From assembly GCA_023132135.1 (NCBI GenBank), contig JAGLYR010000282.1:1-5899 (forward strand): DNA of 5,899 bases. Direction: 5' to 3'. Shown here piece by piece: positions 1-5,899 of this stretch. The position numbers were made by a program, and so were the translations under genes. The notes beneath the pieces are model-generated. The model saw only the letters and a program-made list of their open reading frames with translations. It did no database searches and was not told where the DNA came from. The DNA is from Candidatus Eiseniibacteriota bacterium. GTDB taxonomy: Bacteria > Arandabacterota > Arandabacteria > JAGLYR01. The number at the start of each line of letters is the position of its first letter. Position 1 is the stretch's first letter.

Positions 1-1
1 G

Positions 2-469
2 GAAGGATTCATCGAGAAAGTGGGCTTGAGGAGCACCTGGATCCGGATGCTCCCCAACAACATAGTGATCGTCCCCAACGCGAAGCTGATCAGTGGTCAG
101 ATCCTCAACTACTACCTTCCGGAACGGGAGATGTCCACACTGGTTCAGGTCGGGGTCCACTATGACAGCGACCTGGAGCATGTCGAGCGGGTGACCATCG
201 AGACCGGCCGGGAGGTGATGGCCGAGATCGAGAATGGGGTGCCGGAGTTCGATCCGTTCATCCGGTATCATACCTTCGATGACTCCAGTATCAACTTCAG
301 CGTCATCCTGAGAACCCGCGAGGTGGTCGGCCGCTACCTGATCAAGCACGAGTTCATCAAGCGACTCCACAAGCGCTACAACGAAGAGGGCATTGTGATC
401 CCGTTCCCGATCCGGACGCTGGAGGTAAGTCAGGGAGATTTGGGACTGCTGGCCGGCGACAAGAAATGA
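2..469 (+). CDS. MscS-family mechanosensitive channel, C-terminal part (5' end outside window)
   Basis: The frame is open from the first complete codon at base 2 and stops with TGA at 467-469, giving 155 residues of a longer protein. It opens with EGFIEKVGLRSTWIR and continues to NNIVIVPNAKLISGQILNYY. This is the MscS beta-domain signature (G-x-V/I-E-x-I/V-G-L-R-S-T, then a V/I-P-N-x-x-L motif). A mixed alpha/beta domain follows to about residue 150, typical of the cytoplasmic vestibule. The pore helix (TM3) and any extra N-terminal membrane helices lie upstream and cannot be seen. Channels of this family sit in the inner membrane and release solutes on hypo-osmotic shock. The GTG at base 20 is an internal Val codon inside the conserved motif, not a start. 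No co-directional gene follows; the next gene is convergent, 129 bp away. The family is clear; the paralog type is not. Confidence 0.93.
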   Translation, partial: EGFIEKVGLRSTWIRMLPNNIVIVPNAKLISGQILNYYLPEREMSTLVQVGVHYDSDLEHVERVTIETGREVMAEIENGVPEFDPFIRYHTFDDSSINFSVILRTREVVGRYLIKHEFIKRLHKRYNEEGIVIPFPIRTLEVSQGDLGLLAGDKK

Positions 470-565
470 ATGGGCGACGCAGAAACCGCAGATTCAGGGC
501 CGCGCCTCAGTGACAGGTGGCAGGCGACTAGGATTGGGGAATACTGCTGTCCGCCGCTTGCGCTC

Positions 566-584
566 TCCGGGAATAGCTCCCGGA
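566..584. terminator. Weak hairpin between convergent genes
   Basis: TCCGGGA and TCCCGGA form a perfect 7-bp stem with a 5-nt loop. It lies between the channel stop (469) and the stop of the minus-strand small gene (599). Neither strand shows a T run after the stem, so it is not a canonical intrinsic terminator. It could block read-through in both directions or simply be a stable RNA 3' end. The rest of 470-598 holds no supported gene. Confidence 0.35.
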
Positions 585-598
585 ATACCCTGGAGTGT

Positions 599-859
599 CT
601 AGTCCTCAGTGACCAGGTATACTGTATCCGTCACCCGGGCATGCTCCGTGACCTTTAATCCAACCGAGTCTCCGGGTTTGGCGGACTCCACGTTCTCGTG
701 CTCCACCTCCATTGAGTCCACCGTCTGGGTGAAGTCGGATGTTGGACCCTTGATGTGGATAGTGTCTCCGACCTTGAGCTCACCTGCGGTAATGTCAATG
801 GCAGCAACACCGATCTTGCCGAAATAGTGAGAGATCTTTCCGATTTCGATCTCTGCCAT
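599..859 (-). CDS. Translation elongation factor-like protein (EF-Tu domain II-like), 86 aa
   Basis: The product begins MAEIEIGKISHYFGKIGVAAI and contains LKVGDTIHIKGPTSDFTQTV (about residues 29-47), then AKPGDSVGLKV (60-70). This is the beta-barrel pattern of EF-Tu/EF-G domain II, as found in short stand-alone proteins annotated 'translation elongation factor-like' in anaerobic bacteria and archaea, and related to the C-terminal barrel of U32 peptidases. There is no GTPase domain, and the length fits the stand-alone family. The cellular role is unknown; nucleic-acid or ribosome contact is inference from the fold. I chose the ATG at 857-859. The frame stays open 16 codons further upstream to 907, but that extension (RSLRRATVSQTRGGT) looks non-coding and contains the ribosome binding site. 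The gene is divergent from iorA and has its own strong promoter. It ends with TAG at 599-601. Confidence 0.88.
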   Translation of the reverse strand: MAEIEIGKISHYFGKIGVAAIDITAGELKVGDTIHIKGPTSDFTQTVDSMEVEHENVESAKPGDSVGLKVTEHARVTDTVYLVTED

Positions 860-862
860 TGT

Positions 863-872
863 CCCCCCCCTT
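863..872 (-). promoter_or_regulatory. Ribosome binding site made of a G8 homopolymer
   Basis: On the minus strand the start region reads AAGGGGGGGGACAATG, with eight consecutive Gs ending 3 nt before the ATG. It supports the start at 859. A mononucleotide tract this long in a ribosome binding site is prone to slippage, and length changes would shift the Shine-Dalgarno spacing without touching the reading frame. Confidence 0.6.
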
Positions 873-928
873 GTCTGTGAGACGGTTGCCCGCCTCAAGG
901 AGCGCAAAGTTCTTTCCGTCTGACGCGT

Positions 929-957
929 ACTCTATCAATAGAACCAAACCGTGTCAA
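929..957 (-). promoter_or_regulatory. Sigma70-type promoter for the EF-like gene
   Basis: On the minus strand there is a perfect -35 box TTGACA (952-957), a 17-bp spacer and TAGAGT as -10 (929-934). Transcription would begin near 921, leaving a leader of about 60 nt before the ATG at 859. It lies back to back with the iorA promoter candidate. Confidence 0.65.
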
Positions 958-978
958 CGGTCATCCTCGCCGGGCCAT

Positions 979-998
979 CCACACTTCCACACTTGTGG
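979..998 (+). promoter_or_regulatory. Direct repeat plus dyad upstream of iorA: possible operator
   Basis: CCACACTT is repeated head to tail at 979-986 and 987-994. The second copy forms the left half of an inverted repeat, CCACA-CT-TGTGG (987-998). The element sits just upstream of the candidate iorA -35 box and about 20 bp beyond the -35 box of the divergent gene, where a regulator could affect both promoters. The binding factor is unknown. Confidence 0.4.
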
Positions 999-999
999 C

Positions 1000-1027
1000 T
1001 TGCAATTCTGCGCCGGCCTGCTAGTCT
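1000..1027 (+). promoter_or_regulatory. Candidate iorAB promoter with extended -10
   Basis: TTGCAA (1000-1005), a 16-bp spacer and TAGTCT (1022-1027), preceded by TG one base upstream (TGC-TAGTCT), resemble a -35/extended -10 pair. The match is moderate. The predicted start lies close to the AGGAGGGA ribosome binding site at 1050-1057. Confidence 0.4.
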
Positions 1028-1060
1028 CGAACGCCCGCGTCCCAATCCGAGGAGGGAGAC

Positions 1061-2818
1061 ATGGCTCTACTGTCGGGGAACGAGGCGGTAGCCCGCGGTG
1101 CCTATGAGCACGGCGTGCGGGTTGCAACCGCATACCCCGGAACCCCGAGTACGGAAATCCTGGAGAACATCGCCGGGTACGATGAGATAGACGCCCAGTG
1201 GTCCACCAACGAGAAGGTTGCTTTCGAGGTTGCGCTGGGCGCGGCCTTCGGGGGAGCCCGGGCGCTGGTTGCCCTGAAACACGTGGGCCTGAATGTAGCG
1301 GCGGATCCCCTCTTCAGTTCGGTCCACACGGGAGTAACGGGTGGATTCATCATCATCTCTGCAGATGATCCCGGGATGCACTCGTCGCAGAACGAGCAGG
1401 ACAACCGGCTGTACGCCAGGTTCGCCAAGCTGCCCCTCATCGAGCCCTCCGATGGCCAGGAATGCCTGGATTTTCTTGGGGTAGCGCTGGATCTCTCCGA
1501 GGAGTATGGAATCCCCGTTCTTTTCCGGATGAGCACAAGGATCTGCCATTCCATGACCCCGGTGGAGATTGGATCGCGCCGGGAAGTTGAGGTGAAAGAC
1601 TACGAGAAGGACATCGGGCGGCGCCTCCTGATCCCGGCCCACGCGCGCAGGCGTCACGCGAGGCTGGAGGAAAAACTCGTTGAGCTCCGCCAGGCAGCGG
1701 AGGATTCGCCGCTGAACCGGGTTGAAGATGGGGCCAGGAAAATCGGAATCGTGACCAGCGGGATTTCGTACCAGTATGCCAAGGAAGCAATGCCGGACGC
1801 CTGCTTCCTCAAGCTGGGCTTCTCGTACCCGTTTCCCGAGGTGCTGGTCCGGGACTTCGCGAAACGATTTGATTGTCTCCATGTCGTGGAGGAGGGTGAA
1901 CCATTCTTGGAAGAGCAAATCGCCGCCCTCGGAATTCCAGTCGTCGGCAAAGAGCGAATCCCTGCGTGCGGCGAGCTGGACCAGGGGATCGTTGCCCGGG
2001 CTCTGAACGGGGGCGCGGGCGGGAAAGGGCGGGGGTCTGAGCCTGCATCGACGCCCCCCAGACCTCCGGTTCTCTGTCCGGGATGTCCCCACCGGGGATT
2101 CTTCTACCAGGTGAACAAGATGCGCCTGACGGTCACCGGCGACATCGGATGCTACACCCTCGGGGCACTGGAGCCACTGAACGGGATGGATACCTGTGTG
2201 TGCATGGGGGCATCCATTGGTAACGCGCTGGGTTTCGAGAAAGCGCAGGGCAGGGCCTTTGCCCGCAAGACGGTAGCTGTCATAGGCGACTCGACGTTCC
2301 TGCATTCTGGAATCACGGGTCTCATCGACATGGTGTACAACCACGGGACGGTGACGGTGGTGATCCTGGACAACAGCGTTACCGCCATGACGGGACACCA
2401 GGAACACGCGGGGACGGGCAAGACTCTCCGGGGGGAGCCAGCCCACGCGGTGGACTGCCAGGAGCTGGCCCGGGCTGTCGGGGTGAAACACGTGAAGGAA
2501 GTGGACGCTTTCGACCTTGGCGCTGTCTCGGAGGCGCTGGCAGAGGCCACGGATACTGAGGAGGCTTCCGTGATCGTCGTCAGGGGCGAGTGCATCCTCC
2601 GGATCCGGGATCGGTGGGGGCCGGCGCTGGCGGTGGACCCGGAGACGTGCACGGCGTGCGGGGTTTGTCTCAAGCTGGGCTGCCCGGCGATTTCCCGTGA
2701 TGCCGAAGGGAAGGCAGTCATCGACGCTTCCCTCTGTGTGGGGGAGGTCTGCAGCATGTGTGCGCAGGTTTGCCCCAAAGGGTGCATCGAGGTGGGGAAG
2801 GGAGGTGGTGACCGGTGA
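1061..2818 (+). CDS. iorA: Indolepyruvate:ferredoxin oxidoreductase, alpha subunit
   Basis: A 585-residue protein, the usual length for IorA. Residues 1-180 are the pyrimidine-binding domain (LLSGNEAVARGAYEHGV, then AYPGTPSTEI at 25-33). Residues about 225-315 form the middle domain. A low-complexity Gly/Pro linker spans about 317-336. The thiamine-diphosphate domain begins at CPGCPHRG (339-346), with GDIGCYTLG (360-368) and the TPP/Mg motif GDS (409-411) to DN (437-438), then TAMTGHQ. The C-terminal ferredoxin-like domain carries C530-x2-C533-x2-C536-x4-C541-P and C559-x4-C564-x2-C567-x3-C571-P, for two [4Fe-4S] clusters. The x4 spacing in the second motif is unusual. With IorB it converts indolepyruvate, phenylpyruvate and similar aryl pyruvates, CoA and oxidised ferredoxin to aryl-CoA, CO2 and reduced ferredoxin in the cytoplasm, in aromatic amino acid fermentation or in reverse for synthesis. 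The ATG follows AGGAGGGA at 1050-1057. It overlaps iorB by 4 bp. No aryl-CoA ligase or transaminase gene is in view. Confidence 0.96.
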   Translation: MALLSGNEAVARGAYEHGVRVATAYPGTPSTEILENIAGYDEIDAQWSTNEKVAFEVALGAAFGGARALVALKHVGLNVAADPLFSSVHTGVTGGFIIISADDPGMHSSQNEQDNRLYARFAKLPLIEPSDGQECLDFLGVALDLSEEYGIPVLFRMSTRICHSMTPVEIGSRREVEVKDYEKDIGRRLLIPAHARRRHARLEEKLVELRQAAEDSPLNRVEDGARKIGIVTSGISYQYAKEAMPDACFLKLGFSYPFPEVLVRDFAKRFDCLHVVEEGEPFLEEQIAALGIPVVGKERIPACGELDQGIVARALNGGAGGKGRGSEPASTPPRPPVLCPGCPHRGFFYQVNKMRLTVTGDIGCYTLGALEPLNGMDTCVCMGASIGNALGFEKAQGRAFARKTVAVIGDSTFLHSGITGLIDMVYNHGTVTVVILDNSVTAMTGHQEHAGTGKTLRGEPAHAVDCQELARAVGVKHVKEVDAFDLGAVSEALAEATDTEEASVIVVRGECILRIRDRWGPALAVDPETCTACGVCLKLGCPAISRDAEGKAVIDASLCVGEVCSMCAQVCPKGCIEVGKGGGDR

Positions 2819-3378
2819 AAGGGACCGTCGATCTCATGCTTTCCGGTGTCGGAGGTCAGGGAATCATCCTCGCCGGCAATCTTGTAGCGGATCTGGCTCT
2901 GGATGCGGGATTTGATGTGAAGAAGAGCGAAGTCCACGGAATGGCCCAGCGGGGCGGATCCGTGGTGAGCCACGTCCGCTTCGCCCGAAAGGTGTACTCG
3001 CCGGTGATTGTGGAAGGGCAGGCGACCCACCTGGTGGCCTTCGAGCTAATGGAGGCGCTTCGCTGGATTCACATGCTTGTCCCAGGCGGGACCCTGATTG
3101 TCAACGAGCAGGAGATCATTCCCAGTGGTCTGACCACTTATCCCAAGGCGATTCGCGAGGGCATAACATCGCGCTGTTCCCAGACCGTCTTCATCAATGG
3201 CGGCCGTCTGGCCGCGGAGGCGGGCAATGTCCGGGCGGTTAACGTTGCTCTGCTCGGGGCCCTTTCGAAGTACCTCGATTTCGATGTGTCGGAGTGGGAG
3301 CACGCGATCCGGAAACGTGTCCCGGAAAAGTGGATGGATGTGAATCTGAAGGCGTTTGAGATGGGCCGCGTGGGGTAG
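2815..3378 (+). CDS. iorB: Indolepyruvate:ferredoxin oxidoreductase, beta subunit
   Basis: A 187-residue protein, full length for IorB (2-oxoacid:acceptor oxidoreductase gamma/delta-type domain). Visible signatures are LSGVGGQGIILAG (9-21), a glycine-rich loop, SEVHGMAQRGGSVVSHV (38-54), the classic family motif, and a C-terminal VPEKWMDVNLKAFEMG (169-184). It is the partner of IorA and belongs to the half of the enzyme that binds CoA and substrate. The start is GTG at 2815, sharing GTGA with the iorA stop, with GGAGGT at 2801-2806 and an 8-nt spacer. This coupling implies equimolar translation. The stop is TAG at 3376-3378, two bases before a strong hairpin. No unusual residues were seen. 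Confidence 0.95.
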   Translation: MKGTVDLMLSGVGGQGIILAGNLVADLALDAGFDVKKSEVHGMAQRGGSVVSHVRFARKVYSPVIVEGQATHLVAFELMEALRWIHMLVPGGTLIVNEQEIIPSGLTTYPKAIREGITSRCSQTVFINGGRLAAEAGNVRAVNVALLGALSKYLDFDVSEWEHAIRKRVPEKWMDVNLKAFEMGRVG

Positions 3379-3380
3379 AT

Positions 3381-3415
3381 CGGAAGGGCGGCGGGTTTTG
3401 CCCGCCGCCCTTCCG
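3381..3415. terminator. Perfect 15-bp hairpin after iorB, shared with the convergent gene
   Basis: CGGAAGGGCGGCGGG (3381-3395) and its exact complement (3401-3415) enclose a TTTTG loop. The stem is very G+C-rich. It lies 2 bp after the iorB stop and 26 bp beyond the 3' end of the minus-strand secreted-protein gene, so it can act in both directions. Neither side has a real T tract (only GGTTTG on the plus strand), so termination may need Rho or the hairpin may act as an RNA-end stabiliser. Confidence 0.75.
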
Positions 3416-3441
3416 CAAGGTTTGACAGATTGGGAGGAACT

Positions 3442-4269
3442 CTACCGGAACAGGGCCTTCATCGAACTCCATGTCGAAGGCTCGGTGGAGCTTGGCCCGC
3501 CATCCAGCTCACCGAAGAGCTTCAGGATGGGGTTGCTCCCGGTGGCGTCGTTCCGGCATGAGCAGACCCAATGAACGTAGATTTCGGATCCGCACATGGG
3601 GTGGCCGAGGTATGCCATGGGAATGACCACCTCGATCACGTGCGTGTCGAATTCGTTCTCGATGACGCCAGTGGCCTGGTAGGTGAGATCCAGGGATCCC
3701 ACGAGGGTGCCGCCCGAGAAATTGGCTAGTTCTCCCTGCGCAGCGACGGAGTGGGACTCGTCATATACAAACCAGTCCGAAACGTCCGTGGCGTAGAGAT
3801 CGCCCGTTCCCCCGTCCACGTCAATCCCGAAGTCGTAGGTTCCGCCGTTGAGTCCAATGGCGATATCTCCCGGCACGACGTGGAAATCGGGGATTTCGGG
3901 GTGCGTGAACCCATCCGGAGGGAAGGAAGTCACGATGCTGAGGTAGAGGAACGCAGCATTGTTGTCCAGATAGATGGCCTCAACATCGAAAACCTCTCCG
4001 CCGCTGGGGACACTTCCGAACAGTGTGACCCACGGATCAAAGGAGAGGACATCCTTGCCGTACCAGTCGTCCATGGCCATGTCGGTCGTGGCGATGTGGA
4101 GGGTCGGGTTCCAATCGTGGACGAAGACATCCAGGAATGTGGTCTCTCCGAGGGTAACCTCTCCGGTTTCGAGGACGACCCCGAAATAGTCCTCGAGAAG
4201 ACCGGCTCCGGCCGTCATTGGGATGGCCAGAAGAACAACGGTGGCAATACACAGTAGCGATTTCGTCAT
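3442..4269 (-). CDS. Uncharacterised secreted protein, paralog A (275 aa)
   Basis: Residues 1-22 are a clear Sec signal peptide (Lys3, hydrophobic core to about 16, AGA before the predicted cut after Ala22). The mature protein is acidic, with no other membrane segment and no recognisable anchor or sorting signal; it ends KALFR. It aligns gaplessly with the gene at 4768-5595 at about 63% identity. The most conserved stretch is residues 81-160 (about 80% identical), including TLFGSVPSGGE, VEAIYLDN, SIVTSFPP, GFTHPEIPD, PGDI and YDFGIDVDGGTG. A second block is YVHWVCSCRNDATGSNPILK (231-250), with a CxC pair at 236 and 238. The mature protein also has Cys226. The Asp/Gly-rich, beta-type pattern suggests an extracellular beta-sandwich, possibly metal- or ligand-binding; this is inference. 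I do not recognise a named family. The ATG at 4267-4269 follows AAGGAGG with a 5-nt spacer. The stop is TAG. It has its own promoter candidate at 4380-4409. Confidence 0.85.
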   Translation of the reverse strand: MTKSLLCIATVVLLAIPMTAGAGLLEDYFGVVLETGEVTLGETTFLDVFVHDWNPTLHIATTDMAMDDWYGKDVLSFDPWVTLFGSVPSGGEVFDVEAIYLDNNAAFLYLSIVTSFPPDGFTHPEIPDFHVVPGDIAIGLNGGTYDFGIDVDGGTGDLYATDVSDWFVYDESHSVAAQGELANFSGGTLVGSLDLTYQATGVIENEFDTHVIEVVIPMAYLGHPMCGSEIYVHWVCSCRNDATGSNPILKLFGELDGGPSSTEPSTWSSMKALFR

Positions 4270-4337
4270 ATTCTCCTCCTTAGGAAGTGAGTGAGCTCTG
4301 TTCGTACTCCGTCTCCGGGACCCTCTCTCGCCCCCAA

Positions 4338-4353
4338 GAGACCAATTGTTCTC
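4338..4353. promoter_or_regulatory. 16-bp imperfect palindrome in the paralog A leader
   Basis: GAGACCAATTGTTCTC is an inverted repeat around CAATTG with one mismatched pair. It lies downstream of the predicted transcription start and upstream of the ribosome binding site of the minus-strand gene, a position suited to an operator or a leader structure. Nothing equivalent was found in the leader of paralog B. Confidence 0.35.
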
Positions 4354-4379
4354 GATTTCCCTAGTTTCGATCTAGATGA

Positions 4380-4409
4380 AGTATACCATATGCGGGGGTT
4401 GGTGATCAA
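4380..4409 (-). promoter_or_regulatory. Promoter candidate for secreted paralog A
   Basis: On the minus strand TTGATC (4404-4409), an 18-bp spacer and TATACT (4380-4385) give a good sigma70-like match. The transcript would start near 4373, with a leader of roughly 100 nt. An ATCTAGAT palindrome (4370-4377) lies at the predicted start. Confidence 0.55.
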
Positions 4410-4442
4410 CTGCTAATTCGCCTCGCAGCAAAGGCACCAGCG

Positions 4443-4475
4443 CGCCACGTTTAGACAGGTGGCGAAATTTTGACC
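4443..4475. repeat. Hairpin followed by AAATTTTGACC: possible insertion-sequence end remnant
   Basis: CGCCAC (4443-4448) and GTGGCG (4459-4464) form a 6-bp stem with a 10-nt loop, immediately followed by AAATTTTGACC. From memory, repeats of the form AAATTTTGACC occur at the ends of some IS21-like elements. No transposase remains nearby. On the plus strand the stem plus AAATTTT could also work as a terminator, though no plus-strand gene precedes it. Confidence 0.3.
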
Positions 4476-4500
4476 GTCATTGCCGATATGCTGGGGAAGC

Positions 4501-4524
4501 GGTGCTTCGTGCTACGTGCTACGT
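4501..4524. repeat. Heptanucleotide tandem array, unit CGTGCTA
   Basis: A degenerate unit GGTGCTT (4501-4507) is followed by two perfect units CGTGCTA (4508-4514 and 4515-4521) and a partial CGT. The period is 7 bp. Confidence 0.7.
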
Positions 4525-4547
4525 TCAAGGAAAAGGGCATTAGAACA

Positions 4548-4568
4548 AGTCCCTAGTCCCTGGTCCAA
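4548..4568. repeat. Second heptanucleotide array, unit AGTCCCT
   Basis: Two perfect units AGTCCCT (4548-4554 and 4555-4561) are followed by a degenerate GGTCCAA (4562-4568). The period is again 7 bp, but the unit is unrelated to that of the neighbouring array. Confidence 0.7.
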
Positions 4569-4601
4569 TGAAAAGGGCCCCTAAAGCCCCCGGGAGGACA
4601 G

Positions 4602-4642
4602 AGCGACAACGCCCAACCCTCTCGCGGCCTCGGCCTGTCGCT
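4602..4642. repeat. Dyad AGCGACA / TGTCGCT next to the 22-bp repeat
   Basis: A 7-bp perfect inverted repeat (4602-4608 and 4636-4642) encloses 27 nt, including the locally palindromic GGCCTCGGCC. It directly abuts the first copy of the 22-bp dispersed repeat, so the two may form one element. Confidence 0.4.
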
Positions 4643-4664
4643 GTTGTAGCCTGAATAATCCAGG
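4643..4664 (+). repeat. 22-bp dispersed repeat, copy 1
   Basis: The segment starts GTTGTAGCCTG and ends ATCCAGG. It matches 5875-5896 in the same orientation at 17 of 22 positions, and the inner CTGAATAATCCAG is itself nearly palindromic. Copy 1 lies 374 bp upstream of the paralog A start; copy 2 lies 280 bp upstream of the paralog B start. Confidence 0.55.
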
Positions 4665-4675
4665 CTCAATGGGGT

Positions 4676-4729
4676 GCGGGGGAAAAGCGGCCGCCGGTGG
4701 TCGTTTCCGGTTGCCAACTCTTCCCCCGC
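4676..4729 (-). terminator. Inverted repeat downstream of secreted paralog B
   Basis: GCGGGGGAA (4676-4684) and TTCCCCCGC (4721-4729) are perfect 9-bp complements around a 36-nt interior that contains the palindrome GCGGCCGC and a small CCGG/CCGG stem. It lies about 40 bp past the stop of the minus-strand gene, so it may form the 3' end of its transcript. There is no adjacent T tract on the minus strand. Confidence 0.4.
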
Positions 4730-4746
4730 GGGGTCTGGTGTTGATG

Positions 4747-4770
4747 GAGGGTCGTTTAGAGGGTCGTTTA
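4747..4770. repeat. Perfect 12-bp tandem duplication covering the paralog B stop codon
   Basis: GAGGGTCGTTTA occurs twice head to tail (4747-4758 and 4759-4770). On the minus strand each copy begins TAAACGACCCTC. The TAA of the first copy met by the ribosome is the actual stop (4768-4770); the second provides another in-frame TAA 12 bp later. Confidence 0.85.
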
Positions 4771-5595
4771 CCTGAACTGTGCCTTCACGCCGCCCCAGGT
4801 TGTCATCTGCGTTGCAAGGGGATCGCGGTCGATATCCCCTTCGAGTTTCAGAATCGGGTTACTGCCGCTGGCGTCATTCCGACACCCGCAAACCCAGTGG
4901 ACGTAAAGCTGGGTCCCGTCCGGCGGATCTCCCAGGAACACCAGCGGGATCACGGCTTCGATGAGAAAGGTGTCGCATTCATTCTCGGTGAGTTCCGCGG
5001 ACGTGTAGCTGAGAGCCACGGGCCCCAGAGCCACGCCGCCGTCGAAGTGAGTCAGCTCGCCCTGAGCGGGCACGGAGTAGGTCTCGTTCCAGACGTACCA
5101 GTCGGAGGGGGTCGTTGCATGGATGATCCCGGTGCCGCCGTCGACGTCAATCCCGAAATCGTACAGCCCGCCATTGATTCCGATCGTGATATCTCCGGGA
5201 GGAACATGGATATCCGGAATCTCCGGATGAGTGAAGCCTTCCGGAGGGAAGGAAGTGACGATGCTCACGTAGAGGAACTCGCCGTCGTTGTCCAGGTAGA
5301 TGGCCTCGACGTCGTACGGTTCGCCTCCACTGGGAACACTGCCGAAGAGGGTGATGTAAGGATCGAAAGAAAGAGACTCTTTCCCGTACCAGTCGTCCAC
5401 GACGAAATCCGTTGTGCCGATGTGCTGCGAAGGTGTCCAGTCATGCGTGAACACGTCTTCGAAGGTCTCGTCACCCAAACCGACACTGCCGGTGGACAGA
5501 GTGACACCGAAGTAGTCCGTCACCAGCCCGGCGTAGCTGGAGACGGGGACTGCCAGGAATACGATCGCAACGAAACCCAAGAGCATTTTCCTCAT
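4768..5595 (-). CDS. Uncharacterised secreted protein, paralog B (275 aa)
   Basis: It has the same architecture and exact length as the gene at 3442-4269. The signal peptide spans residues 1-22 (Arg2/Lys3, hydrophobic core, SYA before the predicted cut), then comes an acidic mature domain with no anchor. The conserved core (81-160) and the CxC block (YVHWVCGCRNDASGSNPILK, 231-250) are retained; it ends KAQFR. The only mature cysteines shared with the paralog are 236 and 238; this copy has Cys207 instead of Cys226. I chose the ATG at 5593-5595 because it follows AAGGAGG with a 5-nt spacer, matching the paralog. The frame stays open 84 codons further upstream, but that stretch lacks a signal-peptide-like start and would bury the signal sequence, so it is probably leader. 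The stop is TAA inside a 12-bp tandem repeat. Role unknown: the tandem copies suggest recent family expansion or two-component surface use, which is inference. No confident promoter was found. Confidence 0.85.
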   Translation of the reverse strand: MRKMLLGFVAIVFLAVPVSSYAGLVTDYFGVTLSTGSVGLGDETFEDVFTHDWTPSQHIGTTDFVVDDWYGKESLSFDPYITLFGSVPSGGEPYDVEAIYLDNDGEFLYVSIVTSFPPEGFTHPEIPDIHVPPGDITIGINGGLYDFGIDVDGGTGIIHATTPSDWYVWNETYSVPAQGELTHFDGGVALGPVALSYTSAELTENECDTFLIEAVIPLVFLGDPPDGTQLYVHWVCGCRNDASGSNPILKLEGDIDRDPLATQMTTWGGVKAQFR

Positions 5596-5614
5596 CACAT
5601 CCTCCTTCCAAAAG

Positions 5615-5693
5615 GCCGACGTCCCATCGGCTCTCGATCTTCGGTTCGGGGGAAACCCCCCAATCTGCCGGGTGAAACTTCCCGAGATCGAGA
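5615..5693 (-). promoter_or_regulatory. Structured leader upstream of secreted paralog B
   Basis: Two structures sit upstream of the ribosome binding site. GCCGA (5615-5619) pairs with TCGGC (5627-5631). TCTCGATCT (5632-5640) is a perfect 9-bp complement of AGATCGAGA (5685-5693), enclosing a second stem, GGGGG-AAA-CCCCC (5648-5660). The arrangement resembles a folded 5' leader, but I recognise no known riboswitch class. Confidence 0.35.
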
Positions 5694-5874
5694 ACCTCTC
5701 CTCTTGCGCTAACTCCATGTTGTGCATGGCCATTGCCCGAATTCGGTCTGGATATTGCACGGGTCTGGAGCCATTTGCCGGAGAGGTTATGCAGATTCGA
5801 TGCCAGGAAGGGCGAGTGCGCGAGAGGGCAACACGGCGAGGGGGCAACGCTGTCGTTCTGTCTCAGTCACTCGG
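5694..5874. other. Upstream region of paralog B with no gene recognised
   Basis: No convincing coding region or consensus promoter was seen on either strand. There is a short dyad CCATG-TTGTG-CATGG around 5716-5730 and a repeated GGCAAC word near 5826-5846. Confidence 0.4.
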
Positions 5875-5896
5875 GTTGTAGTCTGGGTTATTCAGG
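5875..5896 (+). repeat. 22-bp dispersed repeat, copy 2
   Basis: It starts GTTGTAGTCTG and ends ATTCAGG, and matches 4643-4664 at 17 of 22 positions in the same orientation. It lies at the window edge, so flanking parts of the element may be cut off. Confidence 0.55.
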
Positions 5897-5899
5897 AAT

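Follow-up and report, generated by a model that had tools for sequence, protein, structure and literature searches.

Short C-terminal W-tail on a tandem pair of exported proteins of Candidatus Eiseniibacteriota as a possible sorting tag linked to type IX secretion

We analysed a 5,899-nucleotide stretch of DNA (contig JAGLYR010000282.1, positions 1 to 5,899, assembly GCA_023132135.1; hereafter the window) from a Candidatus Eiseniibacteriota bacterium, in which two adjacent genes encode a tandem pair of exported proteins, designated copies A and B. They end in TWSSMKALFR and TWGGVKAQFR, respectively, and this C-terminal motif, the W-tail, is common to about 30 exported proteins of the host with mostly unrelated bodies. 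We propose, with a probability of roughly 0.55, that the destination of a Sec-exported beta-sandwich protein is set here by an exchangeable C-terminal tag, the W-tail replacing the PEP-CTERM tag of related proteins and being linked to type IX secretion. The broader claim, that W-[GS]-x-[IV]-K-x-[LM]-[YF]-R represents an undescribed minimal sorting signal of type IX-bearing bacteria, read by a putative receptor and exchangeable for either PEP-CTERM or the type A C-terminal domain (CTD) of type IX secretion on homologous proteins, is put forward more tentatively, as just short of an even chance.

The two open reading frames (ORFs) are located on the minus strand, and each encodes 275 aa. Their products align end to end without gaps (173 of 275 residues identical, 63%; BLASTP E = 7e-132). 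Both N-termini are strongly hydrophobic, also by hydrophobicity score, with a plausible cleavage site after residue 22, and an AAGGAGG ribosome-binding site lies closely upstream of each gene. The initial annotation had described a tandem, equal-length, secreted pair with uneven conservation, and recomputed identities agreed with it: 41% in residues 1–22, 80% in 81–160, 46% in 170–230, 90% in 231–250, and 44% in 251–275. Its remark that the C-terminus drifts is correct for the terminal block overall but not for the last nine residues, which retain W267, K271, F274, and R275. Since dN, the nonsynonymous divergence, was 0.27 and dS, the synonymous one, about 2.9 (saturated), both copies are under purifying selection. 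A search of the host assembly (3.4 Mb, 345 contigs, 96% complete) returned copies A and B as the sole two instances of the body. The third match, a 238-aa exported protein that is unrelated to the pair and has VEPSTWSNVKAMYR at its end, aligned through the last 18 residues only.

The host genome was searched with a DNA pattern for W-x-x-hydrophobic-K-x-x-[FY]-R-stop, with Arg as CGN, and with the same pattern reversed as a control. There were 29 matches against 0 for the control, and nearly all of them terminated long ORFs. Copy B has AGG as the Arg codon of the tail and hence falls outside the DNA pattern despite the same peptide motif. All 25 tail ORFs with a complete 5′ end had a signal peptide by hydrophobicity score, and these proteins fell into 12 body groups, comprising beta-helix proteins, CARDB, a proprotein-convertase P-domain protein, and many without any family. 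When tail ORFs from several genomes were taken together, 87 of them formed 37 body clusters. The W, K, R, and aromatic positions were imposed by the search pattern; positions that were free in the search were also conserved, with S/T before W in 80 of 87 ORFs, G/S/A after W in all 87, and L/M at −2 in 68. The consensus was [ST]-W-[GS]-x-[IVL]-K-[AST]-[LM]-[YF]-R-stop, roughly 9 residues positioned exactly at the C-terminus and usually led in by a short P-[TV]-x-[VT]-E linker. Both copies belong to this proposed class, having [ST]W[GSA]x[IVLM]Kxx[YF]R at the exact C-terminus together with a signal peptide. The earlier statement that they lack any sorting tag was therefore wrong: a different tag is present, and about 30 other host proteins have it. 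Neither NCBIfam nor Pfam has a model for the W-tail, and its description was not found in the open-licence PubMed Central (PMC) literature. An amphipathic helix was rejected, as the hydrophobic moment was not clearly above that of shuffled sequences.

It is very unlikely that the pair represents just an ordinary secreted ligand-binding family, the tail being part of the fold and not a signal. Copies A and B do share the tail along with 63% identity throughout, but these nine residues recur at the C-termini of at least 12 body groups of the host, which largely refutes this explanation, and the closest relatives of the body carry PEP-CTERM at the tail's place.

Neither copy had a match in Pfam (up to E = 10) or NCBIfam, and PDB sequence searches with one protein and with a 16-sequence profile gave no meaningful match, in line with the initial suggestion of an unrecognised family. 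Lanosterol demethylase rows (E 0.4) in the PDB search were rejected as chance. Relatives of the body were detected in two of the 97 other genomes searched, at loci L004 (43%, E = 4.6e-37) and L005 (34%). Sixteen named loci also hold relatives, including four from Candidatus Eisenbacteria and others from Planctomycetota, Chloroflexi, Verrucomicrobiia, Elusimicrobiota, Omnitrophota, Neomarinimicrobiota, and one Nanoarchaeia archaeon. Over 16 aligned sequences, D95, E97, A98, I99, Y100, Y109, G134, D135, W166, C238, and D241 were invariant, and N240 was kept in more than 90%. Full-length homology with the D-V/I-E-A-I-Y, G-D, and C.ND motifs places the pair in an HW...C.ND body family. At this motif, the members from Elusimicrobiota and Omnitrophota have HWTQECGND and HWTETCGND, so that the likeness to PEP-CTERM-associated proteins with HW...CGND, to which the initial annotation had pointed, corresponds to real homology. 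The 231–250 block with the CxC pair and CRND had been described as nearly invariant. Of the two cysteines, Cys236 is peculiar to copies A and B, and relatives conserve Cys238 alone, which weakens the idea of a metal-binding CxC.

The AlphaFold model of the body (16 sequences) was a beta-sandwich with a predicted local distance difference test score (pLDDT) of 74. The leaders of the VIA-align comparison included CBM9-type and related ligand- or heme-binding chains, namely 2ivf_C (ethylbenzene dehydrogenase gamma), 4jpq, 7nwn, and 1i82, at Z of 6.5–7.6, which is below the reliable range. Some of these chains ranked high in Foldseek too, at E of 8e-3 or worse. CBM9/DOMON-like beta-sandwich proteins are thus among the best structural matches in two methods; the body has no match to a Pfam profile. 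The body may possibly be similar to CBM9/DOMON ligand-binding folds, as a lead and not as a membership. The core had been predicted to bind a ligand or a metal; the model would allow a carbohydrate- or heme-binding-like beta-sandwich core, with a weak match, and the metal-binding part loses ground along with the CxC pair. The tail region was modelled with low confidence as a helix at 266–274 (pLDDT below 50).

The relatives L004 and L005 match PF07589 (PEP-CTERM), and VPEPSTLLLLGTGLLG...RRRR-like tags form the C-termini of the relatives from Eisenbacteria, Planctomycetota, Omnitrophota, and Elusimicrobiota. Copies A and B have no match to PF07589 or TIGR02595. No exosortase (PF09721) and no PEP-CTERM match over the cut-off were detected in the host, and exosortase was absent from its seven classmates too. 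Most genomes with PEP-CTERM-tagged relatives hold exosortase (G049, G076, G386–G390, G393, G394, G398, and G399); it was not found in the 1.3-Mb Elusimicrobiota assembly G397, which contains such a relative. The body of the window proteins is therefore tagged with PEP-CTERM in genomes that have exosortase and with the W-tail in the host, which lacks it. Outside the class of the host, exosortase was present in 8 of 13 genomes rich in W-tails and absent from the other 5; since some tail-rich genomes lack it, the W-tail is not an exosortase tag. Exchange was also seen for other bodies: a ScyF-like body (PEP-CTERM family; 1.3e-61) and a choice-of-anchor-J-like body both occur with the W-tail, and the host beta-helix protein L175 has a type A CTD, while its host homologues with about 30–35% identity have the W-tail. 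Because homologous bodies are found with PEP-CTERM, a type A CTD, or the W-tail, the latter behaves like known interchangeable sorting tags. Both copies of the pair share the W-tail, so the tandem duplication probably followed its acquisition. In Chloroflexi (Anaerolineae; L015, L016, and L019), the same body is located at the N-terminus of long proteins, two of which end in an LALLSLKRRRK-like hydrophobic tag; exosortase (PF09721) was undetected there, and these ends are possibly another tag exchange.

We also consider it very unlikely that the W-tail is a PEP-CTERM decayed after the loss of exosortase, TEPSTW...FR being a remnant similar to PEPST...RRR. The TEPSTW of copy A aligns to PEPST of the relatives, and the host with its seven classmates is devoid of exosortase. 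However, the W-tail is abundant in genomes with both exosortase and PEP-CTERM proteins (G076, G386–G389), its spacing to the C-terminus is fixed, and many tail bodies are unrelated to PEP-CTERM families.

Among 386 genomes, 21 carried 5 to 74 matches of the W-tail pattern, with 0 or 1 in the reversed controls. Apart from the host and its seven classmates, these tail-rich genomes comprised 13 from six further families. The four named Eisenbacteria assemblies (L010–L013, the same as G386–G389) had 8 to 24 tail matches each, and none was found in the named Planctomycetota, Chloroflexi, Verrucomicrobiia, Elusimicrobiota, Omnitrophota, proteobacterial, or archaeal assemblies. In 13 further genomes, one recognised protein (or one WG-type match) had a W-tail end, several of these being WGSIKAMFR on a small FN3-like exported protein. 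The type IX translocon protein SprA (PF14349) was detected in 21 of 21 tail-rich and 13 of 13 single-copy genomes vs. 100 of 386 overall; the Fisher p was tiny, but the genomes are phylogenetically non-independent. Large numbers of W-tails were thus confined to genomes with SprA. The SprA of the host (G000:C275, E = 3.1e-20) was found in a frame of 1982 aa, and the host genome had 118 type A CTD matches. Those single pattern matches in SprA-negative genomes that were inspected proved to be ends of short chance frames. The window proteins did not match TIGR04183 (Por_Secre_tail, about 72 residues), and no match was listed among the tail-bearing proteins scanned. The W-tail as the end of a CTD was rejected, because the CTDs of the host have different, [KR]KMVLLK-like strands at their ends. 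The open-licence PMC literature yielded no description of type IX secretion in Eisenbacteria.

Some single tail genes were located next to type IX genes. PorD (NF052317) adjoined the tail gene in L072 (1.7e-25) and L076 (5.3e-15), and PorQ (NF033711) in L076 and L078 (2.6e-34 and 5.5e-31), with scores under the curated equivalog cut-offs yet far above chance. The single tail proteins of genomes G008, G058, and G200 are those adjoining the PorD and/or PorQ matches. In Porphyromonas gingivalis, PorD binds PorW at the Sov/SprA translocon, and PorQ belongs to the attachment complex (PMC8754138). A single-copy FN3-like exported protein of about 130–150 aa ending in TWGSIKAMFR lies beside PorD and/or PorQ in L072, L076, L077, and L078 (tail ORF ending near 1527 or at 1504), and it is possibly an unrecognised component of type IX secretion. 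Small lipoprotein-like proteins ending in SWGYVKWIFR and DWGAVKGSFR were present in other SprA-positive genomes (L056 and L057).

The type IX step is the weakest link of our proposal, and several observations weigh against it. The link consists of co-occurrence in non-independent genomes (9 families among the 21 tail-rich ones) and of adjacency in some genomes only. The tail gene was not beside PorD in G014, G081, G162, G222, and G351, PorD (PF16119) was undetected in all 16 tail-rich genomes tested, and PorD adjacency as a general rule was rejected. SprA is not sufficient for the tail, since about 66 SprA-positive genomes had no convincing one. The lipoprotein-like proteins of L056 and L057 might reside in the periplasm or the outer membrane instead of being secreted, and they may hint at a periplasmic role of the tail. 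The analysis yielded neither a receptor nor a processing enzyme, and we infer both the receptor and the final location.

The W-tail might be a real signal independent of type IX secretion, by which proteins are retained or anchored within the periplasm or on the inner face of the outer membrane, or an end recognised by a protease, with SprA merely co-inherited in the same lineages; we regard this as doubtful but as the most probable of the alternatives. It would agree with the lipoprotein-like nature of the two single-copy proteins above, with the absence from tail proteins of the type A CTD, which serves type IX secretion in these genomes, and with the dissimilarity between the W-tail and the KMVLLK-like CTD ends of the host. 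It fits less well with the presence of SprA in 34 of 34 tail genomes across many families, with the location of some tail genes among type IX genes, and with the homologous beta-helix body that has a CTD in the host genome.

According to the proposal that the W-tail replaces PEP-CTERM and is linked to type IX secretion, both copies would be exported by Sec as beta-sandwich proteins; the same body bears PEP-CTERM where exosortase is present and a W-tail of roughly 9 residues in the exosortase-free host. A receptor associated with the type IX machinery may recognise the free C-terminal end in the periplasm and direct the tail protein to the outer membrane or the cell surface. The host would then have two alternative signals, the W-tail and the type A CTD of roughly 75 residues, which it also uses.

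The W-tail shares with the PEP-CTERM/exosortase system (Haft et al., 2006; PMC1569441) the same body family and the character of a C-terminal tag common to unrelated exported proteins, tens per genome. It differs in the lack of a PEP motif, a C-terminal membrane helix, and a basic cluster, as well as in the lack of exosortase in the host. As with the CTDs of type IX secretion, the putative signal is C-terminal on Sec-exported proteins, in a host with SprA and numerous type A CTDs. The known CTDs of types A, B, and C are domains that span from about 70 to over 200 residues, with an immunoglobulin-like beta-sandwich in type A (PMC10202324, PMC12618676), whereas the W-tail comprises about 9 to 16 residues and matched no CTD model. 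Similar to GlyGly-CTERM/rhombosortase and MYXO-CTERM, the class is recognisable only by a C-terminus common to otherwise unrelated proteins. The short tags PEP-CTERM, GlyGly-CTERM, LPXTG, and MYXO-CTERM include a membrane helix (PMC3237569, PMC11980579); GlyGly-CTERM and MYXO-CTERM are tripartite with such a helix, and the W-tail has none.

The features of the pair are listed in Table 1. The hairpin is the probable shared transcript end of the oxidoreductase gene and copy A; no T-run terminator was found. That gene belongs to a two-gene operon (1061–3378, plus strand), convergent with the pair and resembling indolepyruvate ferredoxin oxidoreductase, in the order thiamine pyrophosphate enzyme with a ferredoxin domain, then POR gamma domain. 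The window also contains the C-terminal part of an MscS-type mechanosensitive channel (2–469, plus strand), interrupted by the contig edge, and a stand-alone 102-aa protein (599–907, minus strand) with elongation factor Tu domain 2 (PF03144, 4.2e-8) and without a GTPase domain. Imperfect inverted repeats flank copy B (4650–4666/5880–5896 and 4617–4636/5809–5828). The repeat core CCTGAATAAYCCAGCCT recurs intergenically on other host contigs, with 14 matches in 181 kb of host loci where about 1 is expected, some of the 14 being the same site counted on both strands or in two loci. Several of them directly follow tail genes. The repeat looks like a dispersed element of the repetitive extragenic palindromic (REP) type.

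Table 1. Features of the tandem pair and its surroundings in the window.
Feature	Position	Strand	Basis
Copy A, 275-aa exported protein (body family with C.ND motif)	3442..4269	-	ORF, BLASTP, family alignment
Copy A signal peptide, residues 1-22	4204..4269	-	sequence and hydrophobicity score
Copy A C-R-N-D motif, residues 238-241	3547..3558	-	alignment of 16 relatives
Copy A C-terminal tail WSSMKALFR-stop	3442..3471	-	DNA pattern match at C204:3442-3471
Copy A ribosome-binding site AAGGAGG	4275..4281	-	sequence
Copy B, 275-aa exported protein	4768..5595	-	ORF, BLASTP, family alignment
Copy B signal peptide, residues 1-22	5530..5595	-	sequence and hydrophobicity score
Copy B C-R-N-D motif, residues 238-241	4873..4884	-	alignment of 16 relatives
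Copy B C-terminal tail WGGVKAQFR-stop	4768..4797	-	same peptide motif as copy A
Copy B ribosome-binding site AAGGAGG	5601..5607	-	sequence
16-bp GC hairpin	3381..3415		between convergent ends of oxidoreductase gene (stop 3378) and copy A; z -6.2

Each of the tags LPXTG, PEP-CTERM, GlyGly-CTERM, and type IX CTD led to a sorting enzyme or a secretion system. A nine-residue tag present on tens of proteins per genome in several uncultured lineages gives a searchable handle on their exported proteome and allows direct discovery of the receptor through phylogenetic profiling. If the W-tail does serve type IX secretion, this system would read a short peptide end and not only a folded domain.

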